Below are positions 1 through 30,228 of a stretch of DNA of 32,492 bases, piece after piece. Every line of letters starts with the position of its first letter. Position 1 is the stretch's first letter. The DNA comes from Patescibacteria group bacterium (lineage in GTDB: Bacteria; Patescibacteriota; Saccharimonadia; Saccharimonadales; Saccharimonadaceae). Location of the stretch: assembly GCA_004322265.1 (NCBI GenBank), contig SCSZ01000025.1:1-32492 (forward strand), read 5' to 3'. A model generated the notes under the pieces. It had not been told where the DNA came from, ran no database searches, and worked only from the letters and a program-made list of their open reading frames with translations. The translations under genes and the position numbers were made by a program.

Positions 1-1310
<1,310 letters not shown>

Positions 1311-1660
1311 AGTAATTGCTAATAACCATTTATTAGAATTACTTGCCGTCAATCTTTAAAAAATTTTTTCTTACATCCAAATTGTCAAATTGCAGTGCTC
1401 CCATTGAGAGCACATTTCTACACATCAGTTGGATGTATGTCGTCTGCTCTCAAAATTTTTCGTGTCTACCATTCGGCGTCTCGCTCCAGTAGTAATGTTG
1501 TATTTCTTGCAATAAAATGAACCTCTTACGATTCACTTTTATGCGTATCGCCAGAGGTTCATAGTGAACATTCGCTTAACTTCTAATAATTGTACTCGCG
1601 TAGCCCTACATTTGCAAGGGTTTTTGTGTGGGATTTTAATCTGTTCCGTGCAAGGTAATA
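1311..1660. other. Spacer between 23S 5' end and the antisense gene, with two inverted repeats
   Basis: No gene is seen here. Two clear inverted repeats are present. TACATCCAA (1372-1380) pairs perfectly with TTGGATGTA (1429-1437) and encloses GTGCTC (1395-1400)/GAGCAC (1408-1413). ATGAACCTCT (1517-1526) pairs with AGAGGTTCAT (1553-1562) and encloses TACG/CGTA. They are probably folded parts of the pre-23S leader, and one could be half of the 23S processing structure whose partner lies outside the window. The second may also mark the edge of the segment that brought in the neighbouring gene. Confidence 0.6.
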
Positions 1661-1666
1661 TATACT
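1661..1666 (+). promoter_or_regulatory. -10 box of the antisense gene (leaderless)
   Basis: TATACT lies 7 nt before the GTG start at 1674, so transcription would begin at or next to the start codon. No good -35 and no Shine-Dalgarno sequence are seen. Confidence 0.45.
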
Positions 1667-1673
1667 TATTCTC

Positions 1674-2264
1674 GTGGACATTAATTTTATAAAACAAGTA
1701 GTCAGCATCATTGCCGTAGCCCTTACTTTCATTGCGTATATTCCATACTACAGAGACATTGTAAGGGGTAAAACACATCCTCACATCTACAGTTGGGCAC
1801 TGTGGGGACTATTGACGGTACTAATTGTTGCGCTACAAATAAAGGGTGGGGCTGGCGCAGCCACATGGGTAACTGCTGCAGCAGGTTTGTTATGCTTTGG
1901 TGTGATCGCGCTAGGACTAAAATATGGGAAACGCGATATCACCAGATCGGATACTGTTGTTGCGATCCTGGCGTTAATCGCCATTGCATTCTGGCTAATC
2001 GCAAACCAACCCGTTGTCTCTATTATCTTAGCGGTTATTGCAGATTTACTCGCATTTATTCCAACTGTCCGTAAATCATGGCACAAACCACACACGGAGA
2101 CGTTATCTCTGTATATTACAAATACTATACGGTTCTCGCTCGCACTCTTTGCCGTTCAAGAATACACAATCTTGTCATCGCTCTGGCTCGCGGCTTGGGC
2201 TGTTGCGAATGGGCTCTTCTCCGTTATGCTCGTTATCAGGCGCAAACAAAAAAGCATCATCTAA
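1674..2264 (+). CDS. PQ-loop-like multi-pass membrane protein, encoded antisense within the rRNA operon
   Basis: A 196-aa hydrophobic protein with about six to seven membrane segments. Two related stretches recur: IAYIPYYRDIVRGKTHP (~20-36) followed by YSWALWG, and LLAFIPTVRKSWHKPHTET (~125-143). This repeat of a Pro-containing loop after a helix resembles the PQ-loop/SWEET-like fold, although the Gln of the motif is absent. Transporter or sensor roles are possible and the substrate is unknown. The start is GTG; a -10 box 7 nt upstream and no SD suggest a leaderless mRNA. The gene sits between tRNA-Ile and 23S on the strand opposite the rRNA, and its stop codon ends one base before the tRNA-Ile CCA end. 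Its transcript has no terminator before running antisense to two tRNAs and 16S. That it is a real gene is supported by the long hydrophobic frame; the family assignment is tentative. Confidence 0.75.
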   Translation: MDINFIKQVVSIIAVALTFIAYIPYYRDIVRGKTHPHIYSWALWGLLTVLIVALQIKGGAGAATWVTAAAGLLCFGVIALGLKYGKRDITRSDTVVAILALIAIAFWLIANQPVVSIILAVIADLLAFIPTVRKSWHKPHTETLSLYITNTIRFSLALFAVQEYTILSSLWLAAWAVANGLFSVMLVIRRKQKSII

Positions 2265-2265
2265 A

Positions 2266-2342
2266 TGGTGGGCGACGAGGGACTTGAACCTCCGACCTCG
2301 TCATTATCAGTGACGCGCTCTAACCAGCTGAGCTAGTCGCCC
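2266..2342 (-). tRNA. tRNA-Ile (GAU)
   Basis: A 77-nt cloverleaf with a GGGCGAC/GTCGCCC acceptor stem, anticodon GAT in loop CTGATAA, T-loop TTCAAGT and an encoded CCA. It lies in the 16S-23S spacer, downstream of tRNA-Ala. Ala before Ile is the reverse of the common E. coli/Bacillus order. Confidence 0.97.
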
Positions 2343-2416
2343 ACAATTTAGAAAATGCTTTGATGTAAATAAGTTCTTGGTGGAGTGATCCAGACCGAAA
2401 CCTGGTTCACCCCATA

Positions 2417-2493
2417 TGGTGGAGCGTCGGGGACTCGAACCCCGGACCCCCTGCTTGCAAAGCAGGTGCTCTAGCCAACTGAGCTAACGCCCC
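2417..2493 (-). tRNA. tRNA-Ala (UGC)
   Basis: A 77-nt cloverleaf with a GGGGCGT/ACGCTCC acceptor stem (one G-U pair), anticodon TGC in loop TTTGCAA, T-loop TTCGAGT and an encoded CCA. First tRNA of the rRNA spacer. Confidence 0.97.
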
Positions 2494-2884
2494 ACATCGT
2501 CCGCGAACTTTACCCATTCTATATCAGATAACTCATTGTCGCAAGGGTTAGAGTCGTAGCTAGCACACGAATCTTTCTGACAATAACCCACGAGAGCCCA
2601 AGGATTTACATCGCTAAAACGTGAAATTCTTGGCGCGGAGTCAGGTTGTTGGAGGAAATGGTTCGGGTGATAGCCCGCAGAAATAGAAAAATCCCCCAGC
2701 TTTCGCTAGAGGATTCTCTATTTGGCAACTTAGTTGTGCAATCATCGTCAAGCTATCGAGATTTTTTTGAACTTAGTCTTGTTCCAATAAATTGGAACTG
2801 CGTTATTATGTAAGCTCAACACAATAACAAGACCGACCTAGCTTCAGATAACGATTACTCGATTATCTGGCATAACTCTCCCTA
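2494..2884 (-). other. Internal transcribed spacer, 16S to tRNA-Ala
   Basis: No gene is seen. It holds one arm of the 16S processing stem (2724-2749) and a hairpin at 2681-2723 (AAATAGA..TCTATTT outer arms, AGC/GCT inner arms, 4-nt GAAA loop in the RNA sense), which is likely part of pre-rRNA folding. Confidence 0.7.
2724..2749 (-). repeat. 16S processing stem, 3' arm
   Basis: The 26 bases pair with 4453-4479 on the other side of 16S, with one bulge and two non-identical positions, one a G-U pair. Long stems joining the two ends of pre-16S are the usual RNase III substrate in bacteria. Confidence 0.85.
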
Positions 2885-4356
<1,472 letters not shown>

Positions 4357-22315: not shown

Positions 22316-22951
22316 TTAGCTACGAGTCAGTTCAACAACAGTAAGCGTTGCTGGAATTGACGCAGGACTTTTAACCTTATATTTGGCAACTGTCTCGACG
22401 GGAGCTCCTAACTCCGTGGTAAACTGGGCTAATTCACCCTGAGGTACCTCGTACTTTAGGGCTTTATCGTCATAGTGAACGGGTATAACAACCTTGGGAT
22501 CAATTTTGCTCACCAAGCTGATGGCACCTGTAGCGTCTAGTGTATAACCGTTACCCCCGACAGGAATAATCAAAATATCAAGCAAACCGAGCTCTTCAAG
22601 CTGATCTTCGCTCAGTTTTTCGTATATGTTTCCAATCACACCGATACGCACATCGCCTACTTCAATCCGATACATTGTGCTAAGGAGAGGCTGGCCTTCG
22701 GCATCAAGATGTCGCTGAGCCGGGACTCCCTTTATATCAAAATCTGCAACACCGTACTCACCTGGACCTTCAATAAGTAGTTTAGCGTCCTGTCCGTTGG
22801 TAGCAAAGCGTGCTTCGGTCGCAATTTCAACCGCATCTTTTATAACAATGTCTTTTAAACCCACAATTGATAGCTTTGGATCAATGACAAGTGTAGCCTT
22901 TTTTGTTGTGATGAGTACTGTATTACCACCTTTATATTCAATATCAAACAT
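22316..22951 (-). CDS. Metallo-beta-lactamase-fold protein lacking the zinc motif
   Basis: 211 aa resembling the YtkL/UPF0173-type beta-lactamase fold (PF13483): GNTVLITTKKATLVIDPK at the start, IIPVGGNGYTLDATGA and PKVVIPVHYDD (one His kept) in the C-terminal half. The HxHxDH zinc motif expected after the first strands is missing; the place holds ATEARFATNGQDAKLLIEGPGEY. It is probably not a hydrolase and may be a binding protein. It is the last gene of the thrS operon, 12 nt after the HTH protein, with SD AGGGG. Function unknown. Confidence 0.75.
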   Translation of the reverse strand: MFDIEYKGGNTVLITTKKATLVIDPKLSIVGLKDIVIKDAVEIATEARFATNGQDAKLLIEGPGEYGVADFDIKGVPAQRHLDAEGQPLLSTMYRIEVGDVRIGVIGNIYEKLSEDQLEELGLLDILIIPVGGNGYTLDATGAISLVSKIDPKVVIPVHYDDKALKYEVPQGELAQFTTELGAPVETVAKYKVKSPASIPATLTVVELTRS

Positions 22952-22963
22952 TCTTCTTCCCCT

Positions 22964-23569
22964 TTATTTCTGATCTATTAAGACATTGTCTTTATCAACG
23001 ACGACGGTATATTTACCATTCAATATCTCTGTTATAAACCTATCTCGAATACTCAGTCGATAATAGAACTCATCGTATGATAGCACGGTATAGTTAATAT
23101 CACGACCTTCACCTTTTTCTATCAACTTGATGGCTGCTTTTACTTTGGCCCCAACTAGATTTCCGACCAGGACAACATCAACCTGGCTCGACGACCCACG
23201 AACAAGTACTCCAGCAAATAGTGCCAGGCGAAGGCCAGGAATGGCGCGAATGGCAATACTGTATTCATCTGAAGAGCTATCATCAACAAGTGGCACAGCA
23301 CTGACTTCGTTAACATTATCGCCAAAAATCGCACGAAGTGGCACATAATAGTCGTATCGCTGATTGACTTGGTAGTATAGCTTATTATCTGCACTGTCGC
23401 TTGTAATAATACCGACGTCAAGCATATTAGATAGTTCACGACGGACAGAGTTAATTTGTTCGTCAATTTTGCGCGTTATCTCGCGTACATAGAAAGATTG
23501 GCCTGGACTATTGAGGAACAGGTGTAATAATTTCACCCTTGTCTTTGAACCAAATAGTGCGTCAATCAT
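22964..23569 (-). CDS. Winged-helix protein with nucleotidyltransferase-like C-terminal domain
   Basis: 201 aa. The N-terminal ~80 residues form a winged helix-turn-helix (LFGSKTRVKLLHLFLNSPG, FYVREITRKIDEQINSVRREL, LYYQVN wing). The C-terminal part resembles the minimal nucleotidyltransferase fold often attached to such HTH domains (GLRLALFAGVLVRGSSSQVDVVLVG), but the catalytic GS..DxD pattern is degenerate. It is likely a DNA-binding regulator. SD AGGGG, 7 nt from the ATG. A palindrome at 23591-23609, just upstream and over -10-like sequence, could be its own operator. Confidence 0.75.
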   Translation of the reverse strand: MIDALFGSKTRVKLLHLFLNSPGQSFYVREITRKIDEQINSVRRELSNMLDVGIITSDSADNKLYYQVNQRYDYYVPLRAIFGDNVNEVSAVPLVDDSSSDEYSIAIRAIPGLRLALFAGVLVRGSSSQVDVVLVGNLVGAKVKAAIKLIEKGEGRDINYTVLSYDEFYYRLSIRDRFITEILNGKYTVVVDKDNVLIDQK

Positions 23570-23590
23570 CTATATCCCCTTGGTAACTTT

Positions 23591-23609
23591 CGTGTTCTAT
23601 AATAACACG
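23591..23609. promoter_or_regulatory. Possible operator/promoter before the HTH gene
   Basis: CGTGTT-7 nt-AACACG encloses CTATAAT, which reads as a -10-like TATTAT/TATAGA on the minus strand. A 6-bp inverted repeat over a -10 box beside a winged-helix gene suggests autoregulation. The match is modest. Confidence 0.4.
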
Positions 23610-23610
23610 A

Positions 23611-24495
23611 TTATTCGATGTGGGCGAGCTGATTAGACAAATATGTGTTCGCATCACTTAGATCAAGCCAATGAATAAACTTATTACGTTTTAGCCATGT
23701 TAGTTGTCGTTTTGCGAGTCTCCAATCGATAGTCGCTGATTGAACTTTTAGCTCATCAATAGTCAGCTCATTTTGCAAATATTTATGTATCAATGGGTAG
23801 ATATTTGACGTCATCGATTCACTTTTCCAACCATACATTTTGCCCAATTTTTTCGCCTCTTCAACTACTCCGTTTTCTAACATTTGTTCAATTCTTGTTT
23901 CAATTCGATTACGTAGCACATTTTTATCTGTTGTTATTCCGACAATAATATTTTTATAAACTGGAGTCGCATTTTGCTCGACGTTTACCGCTGCGTTCTC
24001 AATTGCACGCATAACATAGCGCTTATTTTTATCATTCTCAGGGAGGTTAATATTGTGCTCACTACAGTAGTCGTGGAGTTCATCTAAAGACATCTGTTGT
24101 AATTCTAACCTCAGTTTTTCATTTACAACACTCCCAAATGTGTACCCAAATAGCACTGCGTCTACATATAGTCCCGTACCTCCAACCAAGAATGGTATGT
24201 GGCCTCTATTTCGTATCTCAACTATCTTTCGATCCGCATACTTCCTAAAGTTTGCGGCCGTAAAACGGGCTCCAGGCTCGACTAAGTCTAGTCCCCAGTG
24301 CGCAACTAGTTGTTGTTCGTCCTGTGTTGGTTTAGCAGTCGCAATATCGAGACCTGTATAGATAGTACGAGAGTCTGCACAAATAATTTCGCCATTAAAA
24401 CGCCCTGCTAAATCGATAGCAAGCTTCGATTTTCCACTTGCGGTCGGACCAACAATTACCACTAGTGGTAACTCACTTACGGGTTCGGTTGCCAT
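23611..24495 (-). CDS. miaA: tRNA dimethylallyltransferase
   Basis: 294 aa, normal length. It adds a dimethylallyl group to A37 of tRNAs that read codons starting with U. Visible motifs are the P-loop GPTASGKS (16-23), DSRTIYTGLDIATAKP (~41-56) with the catalytic Asp, FLVGGTGLYVDAVLFGY (~101-117), and the C-terminal basic RLAKRQLTWLKRN. The ATG lies inside the end of the alkyltransferase-like gene (19-nt overlap), so the two are translationally coupled. The reading frames differ, and the P-loop spacing supports this start. Confidence 0.95.
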   Translation of the reverse strand: MATEPVSELPLVVIVGPTASGKSKLAIDLAGRFNGEIICADSRTIYTGLDIATAKPTQDEQQLVAHWGLDLVEPGARFTAANFRKYADRKIVEIRNRGHIPFLVGGTGLYVDAVLFGYTFGSVVNEKLRLELQQMSLDELHDYCSEHNINLPENDKNKRYVMRAIENAAVNVEQNATPVYKNIIVGITTDKNVLRNRIETRIEQMLENGVVEEAKKLGKMYGWKSESMTSNIYPLIHKYLQNELTIDELKVQSATIDWRLAKRQLTWLKRNKFIHWLDLSDANTYLSNQLAHIE

Positions 24496-24788
24496 CTTAA
24501 ATCCTTGAAATTATCAACAATATAGTTGGTACAGTTAATGCCTTCCTGCTTTAGTAGCTGAGCTTGAACTTCTCTGCCTCCATAGAACCCGGAGGCCAGC
24601 CCTCCAAAACGATTCACAAGCCGATGCCACGGCAAACTCGTATCACCAAAATGAGCTATGCCACCAACAACTCGAGATGCGTGTGCGTGGCCAGCAAGCG
24701 CAGCCAAATCGCCGTAGGTAGTAACCTGCCCATAGGGCACTTGAGCCATCAAGCTTTCTACTTTATCTCGAAAATTACCATCAACCAT
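24477..24788 (-). CDS. atl: Alkyltransferase-like (ATL) DNA damage-binding protein
   Basis: 103 aa of the MGMT DNA-binding domain. It contains VPYGQVTTYGDLAALAGH (~17-34) and SRVVGGI, but the alkyl-acceptor PCHR motif is PWHR (53-56), with Trp54 in place of the reactive Cys. That substitution defines ATL proteins, which bind O6-alkylguanine without removing the alkyl group and flag it for nucleotide excision repair. It starts 3 nt after thrS and overlaps miaA by 19 nt. Why a DNA lesion sensor sits between two tRNA-related genes is not evident; operon packing is the simplest reason. Confidence 0.9.
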   Translation of the reverse strand: MVDGNFRDKVESLMAQVPYGQVTTYGDLAALAGHAHASRVVGGIAHFGDTSLPWHRLVNRFGGLASGFYGGREVQAQLLKQEGINCTNYIVDNFKDLRWQPNP

Positions 24789-24791
24789 AAT

Positions 24792-26603
24792 CTATAGCTT
24801 CTGTAGATATGTAGCCAGCTCATCGAGCTTCAACTTCTCTTCACCTGATTGAGTTCGGACGCTCACCTCCTGGTTATCCTTGTCCTGCTGGCCAATGATG
24901 AGTTGCACGGGAATTTTCCAAGTGGTCGCTTCGCGAATTTTCTTACCGAGCGATTCGTTACGATCATCGAGGGTATAACGAATTTCATTGTACTTTACAG
25001 GCTTCATTAATGTTAGGCCGTTCAGTACCGCCTTAACCTCGTCTACATAATCAAGTACTGTATCGTTAATTGTCAGTATCCGTACCTGCTCAGGCGCAAC
25101 CCAGAACGGAAACCATCCGGCGGTGTGCTCGATAAAGACACTTAGGAAGCGCTCAATCGAGCCTAGGAGTGCACAGTGGATCATGACGGGTGTCTGGGCG
25201 TTACCCTCGGCGTCAGTGTACTGCAGACCAAATCGACCTGGTTGAACGAAGTCTAGTTGCACGGTTGCAACTTGATGCTCACGACCAATCGCATCAGTTG
25301 CCATGAAGTCGATTTTAGGACCATAAAATGCTGCTTCACCGTCTTGTTCAAAGTAATCAAGCTTATTGGAAACGACCGCAGCTTTAAGTTGTGCCTGCGC
25401 AGAATCCCATAACGACTGCTCACCAAGATAACCGTCCCCGTCATCGCGATACGACAACCTGACACGCAGATTCATATCGATCGTACTATATAGTTCGCGG
25501 GCACTTGCTAATAAGTTATTGATCTCTGCCTCGATCTGATCAGGCCGACAGAACACATGACTGTCATCCTGGGTAAGAGACCGGACACGGTTGAGCCCAC
25601 CTAACTCACCCGTTTTTTCGTCGCGATAATCCGTTGTTGTTTCTAGGTACCTGATTGGCATATCGCGGTAGCTTCGTGGACGACTGGCATAGATCTGTGT
25701 GTGGTGTGGGCAATTCATTGGTTTTAAGGCCATCTTGTCGTCAGTCTCCTGGCTGGTAACGAGAAACAATTCATCTCCGAACTTGGCCCAGTGCCCAGAT
25801 GTCTCGTATAGATCTGTCTTGGTAATGTGTGGCGTCCAGACTTTTTGAAAACCAAATCCTAAGCGTAACTGATTAGAATAACTGGCAAACAGGTCGCGTA
25901 AGATCGTCCCACGAGGCGTGAAAAGTGGTAGACCTGCACCAACCAGCTGCGAAACCGTGTAGATATCTAGCTCTTTACCAAGACGTCTGTGATCACGTAG
26001 TTTGGCTTGTTCGAGCATCTCTAGATGTTGGTCTAGCTCCTCTTGAGTGGCGAATGCGACACCATACAAGCGTTGCATCTGTGGGTTCTTCTCGTTCCCT
26101 CGCCAGTAAGCACCAGCAACTCGTAGCAGTTTGAACGCGCCTACATCCTTGGTGTTGGCGACATGCGGACCGCGGCAAAGATCAACGAAATTACCGTTTT
26201 TGTAAAACGACACGTTTTCTACAGCCGAGTCGCCATCGGTCGCAAGTCCTAATTCGCTCACGTCCAAATCTTTGGCTACTGTCGTACCTGATCGTTTGAG
26301 GTCATTTAGCAACTCTTCCTTATATGGCTGGTGGTTCTCCCGAGCCCAGTCAATCGCCTGATCGATCGGCATTTCAAATCGCTCGAAGTCATCACCATAG
26401 CCGATGATGCCACGCATTTCCTTCTCGATTTTAGGAAAGTTTGCTTCTGATATTTTGATTTCACCCAGGTCAATATCATAATAGAAGCCATTATCAACCA
26501 CTGGTCCAACGCCAAATTTAGCGTCTGGCCACAAGCGCTGCACTGCTGCGGCAGTAATATGCGCGAGGCTGTGTCTCATTGCGTGTAGTTGCTCGTCGTT
26601 CAT
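24792..26603 (-). CDS. thrS: Threonyl-tRNA synthetase, TGS-less
   Basis: 603 aa. It charges tRNA-Thr. The protein begins at the N2 editing domain (HSLAH, H11 and H15; CRGPH with C143), so the ~60-residue N-terminal TGS domain of E. coli ThrRS is absent. The class II core follows, with zinc ligands in PMNCPHHTQ, DDSHVFC and IHCALLGS..EHTAGWFPFW, motif 2 in RVRSLTQDDSH, and the anticodon-binding domain after ~500. SD AAAGGAG sits 7 nt before the ATG, directly after a terminator-like hairpin of a T-box-type leader. It is the first gene of thrS-atl-miaA-HTH-MBL. Confidence 0.96.
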   Translation of the reverse strand: MNDEQLHAMRHSLAHITAAAVQRLWPDAKFGVGPVVDNGFYYDIDLGEIKISEANFPKIEKEMRGIIGYGDDFERFEMPIDQAIDWARENHQPYKEELLNDLKRSGTTVAKDLDVSELGLATDGDSAVENVSFYKNGNFVDLCRGPHVANTKDVGAFKLLRVAGAYWRGNEKNPQMQRLYGVAFATQEELDQHLEMLEQAKLRDHRRLGKELDIYTVSQLVGAGLPLFTPRGTILRDLFASYSNQLRLGFGFQKVWTPHITKTDLYETSGHWAKFGDELFLVTSQETDDKMALKPMNCPHHTQIYASRPRSYRDMPIRYLETTTDYRDEKTGELGGLNRVRSLTQDDSHVFCRPDQIEAEINNLLASARELYSTIDMNLRVRLSYRDDGDGYLGEQSLWDSAQAQLKAAVVSNKLDYFEQDGEAAFYGPKIDFMATDAIGREHQVATVQLDFVQPGRFGLQYTDAEGNAQTPVMIHCALLGSIERFLSVFIEHTAGWFPFWVAPEQVRILTINDTVLDYVDEVKAVLNGLTLMKPVKYNEIRYTLDDRNESLGKKIREATTWKIPVQLIIGQQDKDNQEVSVRTQSGEEKLKLDELATYLQKL

Positions 26604-26790
26604 GTTGTTACTCCTTTTAAATTAAAATAAGACACACAGCGACCGGGTTTATTACTATAAATCCACTCGTTGTATGTCTCGGGTCCAGCATGTTGCTAGA
26701 CGGTTCCACCGGACTTTTACTTGTGAGAGACGTTACGTACGTCTACACTCCCACGGAACTCGGGCAGTTGGTTAGGCTCCGTCATCGTTC
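26604..26790 (-). promoter_or_regulatory. T-box-like leader of thrS
   Basis: In RNA sense, UGGAACC (26702-26708) sits as a 7-nt bulge between helix A1 (GUCCGG 26709-26714 / CCGAGAC 26676-26682, one bulged A) and helix A2 (GUCUAGCA 26694-26701 / UGCUGGAC 26683-26690). This is the T-box antiterminator layout, and the bulge would pair with the uncharged tRNA CCA end. The A1 3' strand shares GAC with a competing hairpin, 26667-26678/26631-26642 (11 of 12 pairs), followed by UUAUUUU, i.e. a terminator. Upstream are two short hairpins. ACC followed by A (26770-26772), a Thr codon, is a possible specifier. The Stem I region is very short for a T-box. Confidence 0.68.
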
Positions 26791-26796
26791 TAGCTT

Positions 26797-26805
26797 ATAA
26801 TAGCA
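26797..26805 (-). promoter_or_regulatory. thrS operon promoter (extended -10)
   Basis: TGC-TATTAT on the minus strand. A start near 26790 gives a leader of about 187 nt. The -35 is weak. Confidence 0.6.
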
Positions 26806-26852: not shown

Positions 26853-26929
26853 GGGTCCTTAGCTCATTTGGCTAGAGCGCCTCATTGACGTTGAGGAGGT
26901 GAGAGGTTCGAATCCTCTAGGACCCACCA
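26853..26929 (+). tRNA. tRNA-Val (GAC)
   Basis: A 77-nt cloverleaf with a GGGTCCT/AGGACCC acceptor, anticodon GAC in loop TTGACGT, T-loop TTCGAAT and an encoded CCA. Confidence 0.96.
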
Positions 26930-30152: not shown

Positions 30153-30228
30153 TGGAGCCGCTGTCCGGAATCGAACCGGAGACCTACGCTTTACGAAAGC
30201 GCCGCTCTACCAACTGAGCTACAGCGGC
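30153..30228 (-). tRNA. tRNA-Thr (CGU)
   Basis: A 76-nt cloverleaf with a GCCGCTG/CAGCGGC acceptor, anticodon CGT in loop TTCGTAA, T-loop TTCGATT and an encoded CCA that shares its last base with a possible downstream ATG. Confidence 0.96.

Follow-up and report, generated by a model that had tools for sequence, protein, structure and literature searches.

A putative tRNA-Thr-sensing T-box leader without a Stem I apex or Stem II precedes thrS in Saccharibacteria

The thrS gene of an ultrasmall Saccharibacterium is preceded by an RNA leader that, judged from its sequence and that of its relatives, is almost certainly a transcription-terminating T-box riboswitch specific for tRNA-Thr(GGU). The leader spans positions 26790-26624 on the minus strand of the 32,492-nt stretch of DNA that was analysed (the window), with a divergent tRNA-Val gene (26853-26926) on one side and thrS (24792-26603) on the other. 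The thrS gene starts at 26603 on the minus strand and encodes a 603-aa protein (TIGR00418, 602.6 bits against a cut-off of 383.65). Its closest named relative is the thrS of Candidatus Saccharibacteria RYN_406 (97% amino-acid identity), which agrees with the initial annotation's placement of the organism in the CPR. That annotation had proposed a T-box-like leader sensing tRNA-Thr from a UGGAACC bulge between two helices, a terminator sharing one of their strands, a U-rich tail and the position ahead of thrS. All four are found at this place on the minus strand, and the proposal is strengthened by covarying helices, a constant Thr specifier, a fit to the tRNA discriminator base and a competing terminator in every parsed relative. 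The suspicion that an unusually short Stem I marks a reduced variant also held, as the 5′ part of the leader resolves into a short kink-turned Stem I and an H-type pseudoknot.

The leader opens with an ultrashort Stem I (26756-26790, minus strand, as are all leader parts below). Its lower helix GAAC/GUUC (26790-26787 with 26759-26756) and its 4-bp upper helix GGAG/CUgCC flank a kink-turn, aligned as tandem GA/GA (26783-26782 and 26761-26760) with a 3-nt bulge; the upper helix of the window copy carries a bulged G that most relatives do not have. The 9-nt apical loop CCUAACCAA (26776-26768) presents the specifier triplet ACC, a Thr codon, at 26770-26772, followed by the purine A26769. Directly adjoining is a pseudoknot resembling Stem IIA/B (26728-26755), in which S1 pairs CGU (26755-26753) with ACG (26738-26736) and S2 pairs AGACGU (26744-26739) with ACGUCU (26733-26728); ACGUA at 26738-26734 is a degenerate F-box. 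By alignment, the purine-rich linker AAGUAAAA (26715-26722) takes the place of the published T-box motif RRRNG-Stem III-AA (PMC7583486, PMC7778990), and Stem III itself is absent from the leader in this genome. The antiterminator (26676-26714), apparent in the sequence and in the covariation alignment, consists of A1 GUCCGG/CCGAGAC (26714-26709 with 26682-26676), A2 GUCUAGC/GCUGGAC (26701-26695 with 26689-26683) and, between them, the 7-nt T-box bulge UGGAACC (26708-26702). The intrinsic terminator (26624-26680) takes the GAGAC of A1 into its 5′ strand and has a U-rich tail ending UUAUUUU, and a Shine-Dalgarno sequence follows at 26618-26611. The minimum free energy of 26800-26604 is -59.3 kcal/mol (z = -3.6), and 0 of 200 shuffles were equally stable.

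Using the genomes of the same family, we located thrS in 149 of 151, and in about 108 cases the upstream region had a readable length. The motif GGUGGNACC was present in 70 of these and 67 leaders were fully parsed; L077 was excluded from the parsed set, its A1 3′ strand and terminator not being recognisable. The 67 leaders fall into two types, type A with CCGGUGGAACC (n = 47) and type B mostly with CAAGGUGGAACC or CGAGGUGGAACC (n = 20). We aligned 46 type A leaders over 32 pairs in 7 helices and found standard pairs in 97.5% of cells, compared with 25-40% for slid controls, and a covariation score of 0.425 against 0.05-0.10 with slid partners. Two-sided changes occur in 203 cells against 60 in shuffles, and none of 500 shuffles reached any of these measures. 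Both helices of Stem I show two-sided changes at every pair, so that the kink-turn lies between covarying helices. In the pseudoknot, S1 is paired in 100% of cells with two-sided changes in 2 of 3 pairs, and S2 is paired in 91% with two-sided changes in 5 of 6. A1 and A2 are paired in 100% and 98.4% of cells, respectively. Covariation across Saccharibacteria thrS leaders had been proposed beforehand as a check on the helices; 23 of the 32 pairs support them by two-sided changes, but A1 is nearly invariant within type A and so gives no covariation support there. Between the types, A1 differs, with GUC/GAC in A and GCC/GGC in B. Stem III is kept in 27 of the 46 aligned leaders as AAGUG-[hairpin]-AA or similar, its unpaired flanks matching RRRNG-Stem III-AA and all 5 of its pairs covarying where it is kept. 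From this alignment, the window copy has lost Stem III.

A covariance model of these leaders finds exactly one match in the whole genome, ahead of thrS, with E = 1.3e-24; such E-values are rough, and the window sequence was among those used to build the model. A simple search of the genome for the T-box motif with one mismatch gave 38 sites against 29 for a reversed-pattern control, making the motif alone uninformative. Of 80 named thrS loci in GTDB genomes, 62 have a full-length copy by this model (E 1e-31 to 1.7e-7) and one has a cut copy. Carriers include TM7i (CP075337.1, a complete genome; L251), oral taxon 348 and GW2011_GWC2_44_17 (CP011211.1). The genomes are mostly metagenome assemblies, and the element recurs in complete ones. 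Its absence from about a quarter of related thrS genes counts against the riboswitch reading.

A decayed T-box, remaining only as a constitutive attenuator, would suit a reduced genome and a leader that has lost Stem II, the apex of Stem I and, in the case of the window copy, Stem III as well. Against this, specifier and bulge, along with the kink-turn and the antiterminator, either covary or stay invariant across many genera despite diverged surroundings, and the third base of the specifier varies only within Thr codons, making a remnant very unlikely.

The leaders also fit the tRNA that a functional T-box would read. The apical-loop specifier is ACN in 67 of 67 thrS leaders (ACC in 53, ACG in 8, ACU in 6). 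The tRNA-Thr genes of this genome have the anticodons GGU, UGU and CGU, and all three end in UCCA (U73), which the UGGA of the bulge fits; among 32 tRNAs read in this genome, U73 occurs only in those for Thr, Lys and Cys. The tRNA-Thr(GGU) matching the specifier ACC is on contig C12. Elsewhere in the phylum, the tRNA-Thr(GGU) of leader-bearing genomes has U73 in 8 of 8 cases, and overall U73 was present in 11 of 11 tRNA-Thr examined. A tRNA-Thr gene also lies within the window (30156-30228, minus strand), with the anticodon CGU, which does not match ACC.

Across the phylum, the model has matches in 62 of 380 genomes, and the genes behind them are thrS, glyS and ileS. (The R1 match in G243, at L223, sits in a coding region and looks like a false positive.) Every thrS leader whose kink-turned Stem I was parsed by script has ACN in its loop. 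In the glyS leaders the loop reads GGN (GGC or GGA) in 8 of 8 parsed and the bulge UGGA, and U73 is present in 4 of 4 tRNA-Gly(GCC) taken from genomes that have a glyS leader. The ileS leaders, from Saccharibacteria and others, combine an apical-loop AUC with UGGU in the bulge, except for L210, whose bulge has UGGA; a single aspS leader from the same class has GAC and UGGC. In this genome tRNA-Ile ends in ACCA (A73) and tRNA-Asp in GCCA (G73). By these comparisons, both specifier and bulge follow the synthetase encoded downstream, with one exception in an ileS bulge.

This correspondence bears directly on two other ways of regulating thrS. In E. coli, ThrRS binds an mRNA stem-loop that imitates the anticodon arm of tRNA-Thr. 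An autoregulatory operator of this type could be suspected here, since the leader precedes thrS and has a hairpin with a 9-nt loop in its 5′ part, but the loop bears the codon ACN rather than the anticodon NGU in all 67 leaders. Moreover, glyS, ileS and aspS are preceded by similar architectures with their own codons, UGGNACC tracks the discriminator base, and none of these features, nor the transcription terminator, would be needed by an operator. We consider this explanation extremely improbable, and the agreement of specifier and bulge with the downstream synthetase speaks equally against leader-peptide attenuation. Ribosome stalling at Thr codons would account for a terminator with an alternative hairpin ahead of a Thr-related gene, and the window leader does have a 22-codon frame with its AUG in the kink-turn; however, that frame has one Thr codon, frames of 8-40 codons with at least 3 Thr codons occur in only 15 of 67 leaders and are mostly unrelated in sequence, and neither the covariation of Stem I and pseudoknot nor the invariant UGGAACC would be explained, leaving attenuation by a leader peptide a negligible chance.

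The T-box reading implies a switch between two structures that share a strand. In the window copy the antiterminator and the terminator alone have energies of -14.6 and -23.9 kcal/mol, respectively. Each of the 67 leaders has a competing intrinsic terminator (mean -20.3 kcal/mol in silico) that uses the A1 3′ strand and is thus mutually exclusive with the antiterminator. At the other end, an extended -10 promoter element TGCTATTAT lies at 26797-26805 on the minus strand. Of 66 leaders, 65 have a TANNNT hexamer whose start lies 10-20 nt (mostly 12-13 nt) before the first helix of Stem I, compared with 71 of 396 background positions (18%), suggesting that the transcript probably starts only a few bases ahead of Stem I. 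A generic scanner for promoters and terminators found neither the leader terminator nor the promoter in the window, because it limits loops to 3-8 nt and expects a -35 box.

We infer from these parts how tRNA binding, charge sensing and antitermination could proceed. Transcription would begin just upstream of Stem I, and the specifier ACC in the apical loop would pair with the anticodon GGU of tRNA-Thr, with the IIA/B-like pseudoknot probably stacking under or beside Stem I. The 3′ end UCCA of an uncharged tRNA would then pair with the UGGA of the bulge and stabilise A1 and A2, denying the GAGAC strand to the terminator and allowing transcription of thrS and the genes behind it. With a charged tRNA, the aminoacyl group would block this pairing, and the more stable terminator could form and end transcription.

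The initial annotation had named the Rfam T-box model RF00230 as a further check, and this came out negative: there is no match in the window or the whole genome at either gathering or relaxed thresholds. With RF00230 silent in the genome, the case had to rest on relatives, which reach 28-54 bits with this model. These scores are below its cut-off of 93 bits, which is a score threshold and not a biological feature. The best link is L167, from another family, which matches RF00230 over the whole model (54 bits, E = 3e-11) and the Saccharibacterial model with E = 2e-17. Its alignment retains the kink-turn bases of the canonical form (AAAGCGAUGA ... GAGCUUC) and an exact F-box CCGUUA, and passes over about 72 positions of the model in the Stem I apex and 25 in Stem II. 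Through L167, the ultrashort Stem I of the window aligns to the base of the canonical RF00230 Stem I. Other sub-threshold matches to RF00230 occur at leaders found by our model (L205, L207, L189, L204, L210, L185, L222, L206, L202 and L219). The leader shares with RF00230 the kink-turn bases, the position of the F-box, the core GGUGGNACCGC and, in relatives, the purine motif of Stem III, and it differs in that the window copy is below the detection score. Through these intermediates the alignments connect the leader by homology to the T-boxes of Rfam, which misses it because RF00230 is dominated by T-boxes with a long Stem I. RF00230 reaches its cut-off in 13 of 380 genomes of the phylum, by way of long canonical T-boxes, and has sub-threshold matches in a further 119, about a third, indicating that T-boxes are common in Patescibacteria.

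T-boxes have been sorted into four classes, in which the Stem I apex (IDTM), a Stem II S-turn or both strengthen the binding of tRNA (PMC10482949). Class III, exemplified by ileS of Nocardia farcinica and Mycobacterium tuberculosis, resembles the thrS leader in its short kink-turned Stem I without an elbow-binding apex, its apical-loop specifier, its IIA/B pseudoknot and its T-box bulge (PMC10482949, PMC7583486). However, class III leaders have a penta- or hexanucleotide loop, require a Stem II with an S-turn and act mostly on translation, whereas the thrS leader has a 9-nt loop, a transcription terminator, specificity for Thr and no Stem II. In type A the pseudoknot follows Stem I with zero nucleotides between them, and the S-turn motif is present in 0 of 67 thrS leaders but is found in ileS leaders of the same bacteria. 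Four such ileS leaders (L335, L336, L337 and L338) and the aspS leader (L339), from Saccharibacteria and relatives in their class, look like class III T-boxes with apparent transcription terminators. They share with the thrS leaders the phylum, the apical-loop specifier, the logic of the bulge and the apparent terminators, and differ from them in keeping Stem II with an S-turn of the AGAA/AGUAGA type. Class II glyQS of Bacillus subtilis (PMC10482949) shares with the thrS leader the transcription terminator, the absence of Stem II and the discriminator domain. Unlike the thrS leader, it has an internal-loop specifier, a single-stranded linker replacing the Stem II domain and a long Stem I with an elbow-binding apex. 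The long Stem I with interdigitated T-loops (IDTM) of classes I and II is absent from the thrS leader, where 4 bp lead into the 9-nt loop.

By its sequence features, then, the thrS leader is a T-box in every defining respect that could be tested, with a specifier-bearing Stem I, a kink-turn, A1-[UGGNACC]-A2, a discriminator match and a competing terminator, yet it lies outside all four classes. It has neither the Stem I apex that binds the tRNA elbow nor Stem II, at least one of which is present in each described class. We lean towards a fifth class, which would occur widely on thrS and glyS of Patescibacteria, act on transcription and be held by the specifier, the pseudoknot and the tRNA 3′ end alone. 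If true, this would overturn both the idea that a T-box needs one of the two extra contacts and the general statement that terminator-type T-boxes require a long Stem I (PMC7583486). A Stem I that is truncated is reported to be a poor binder of tRNA when Stem II is missing (PMC7583486); with both apex and S-turn missing, the affinity for tRNA therefore lacks an explanation, which counts against the riboswitch reading. Even smaller leaders of 88-100 nt occur in other Patescibacteria families. The smallest, L193 (thrS, 88 nt), has seemingly no room for the IIA/B pseudoknot, which this copy has apparently lost, and L219 and L192 (both glyS) have little or no room for it.

T-boxes have been described for Firmicutes, Actinobacteria and a few other phyla (PMC2494555, PMC7583486). 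We found no paper in the open-access literature covered that links them with Saccharibacteria or the Candidate Phyla Radiation. Our results suggest that a sizeable share of Patescibacteria have T-box leaders ahead of synthetase genes. These bacteria are thought to draw much of their nutrition from a host, in which case the charging of tRNAs would reflect what the host supplies. The thrS form may show how little RNA suffices to read a tRNA and, being small and natural, would be suited to testing which contacts are needed. It could also serve as a native regulatory part for Saccharibacteria, in which the use of riboswitches to control expression has been proposed (PMC11665869).

Behind thrS on the minus strand are genes for an alkyltransferase-like protein (24477-24788) and miaA (23611-24495), both assigned by family, an unknown protein (22964-23569) and, again by family, a metallo-beta-lactamase-fold protein (22316-22951), followed by a terminator-like site at 22255-22242. 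The initial annotation had placed five genes, including DNA repair and tRNA modification, under control of the leader. The close spacing or overlap of the four genes behind thrS (22316-24788), their common strand and the terminator-like site make a single operon of these five genes plausible. The supposed DNA repair methyltransferase at 24477-24788 has PWHR in place of the catalytic PCHR. With the active-site cysteine gone, it is an alkyltransferase-like protein and not an active O6-methylguanine methyltransferase. At the other end of the window, an rRNA operon (1-4353, minus strand) has the order 16S, tRNA-Ala, tRNA-Ile, 23S, its tRNA order being the reverse of that in E. coli. About 0.9 kb separates tRNA-Ile from 23S, and a 196-codon frame lies there on the opposite strand.
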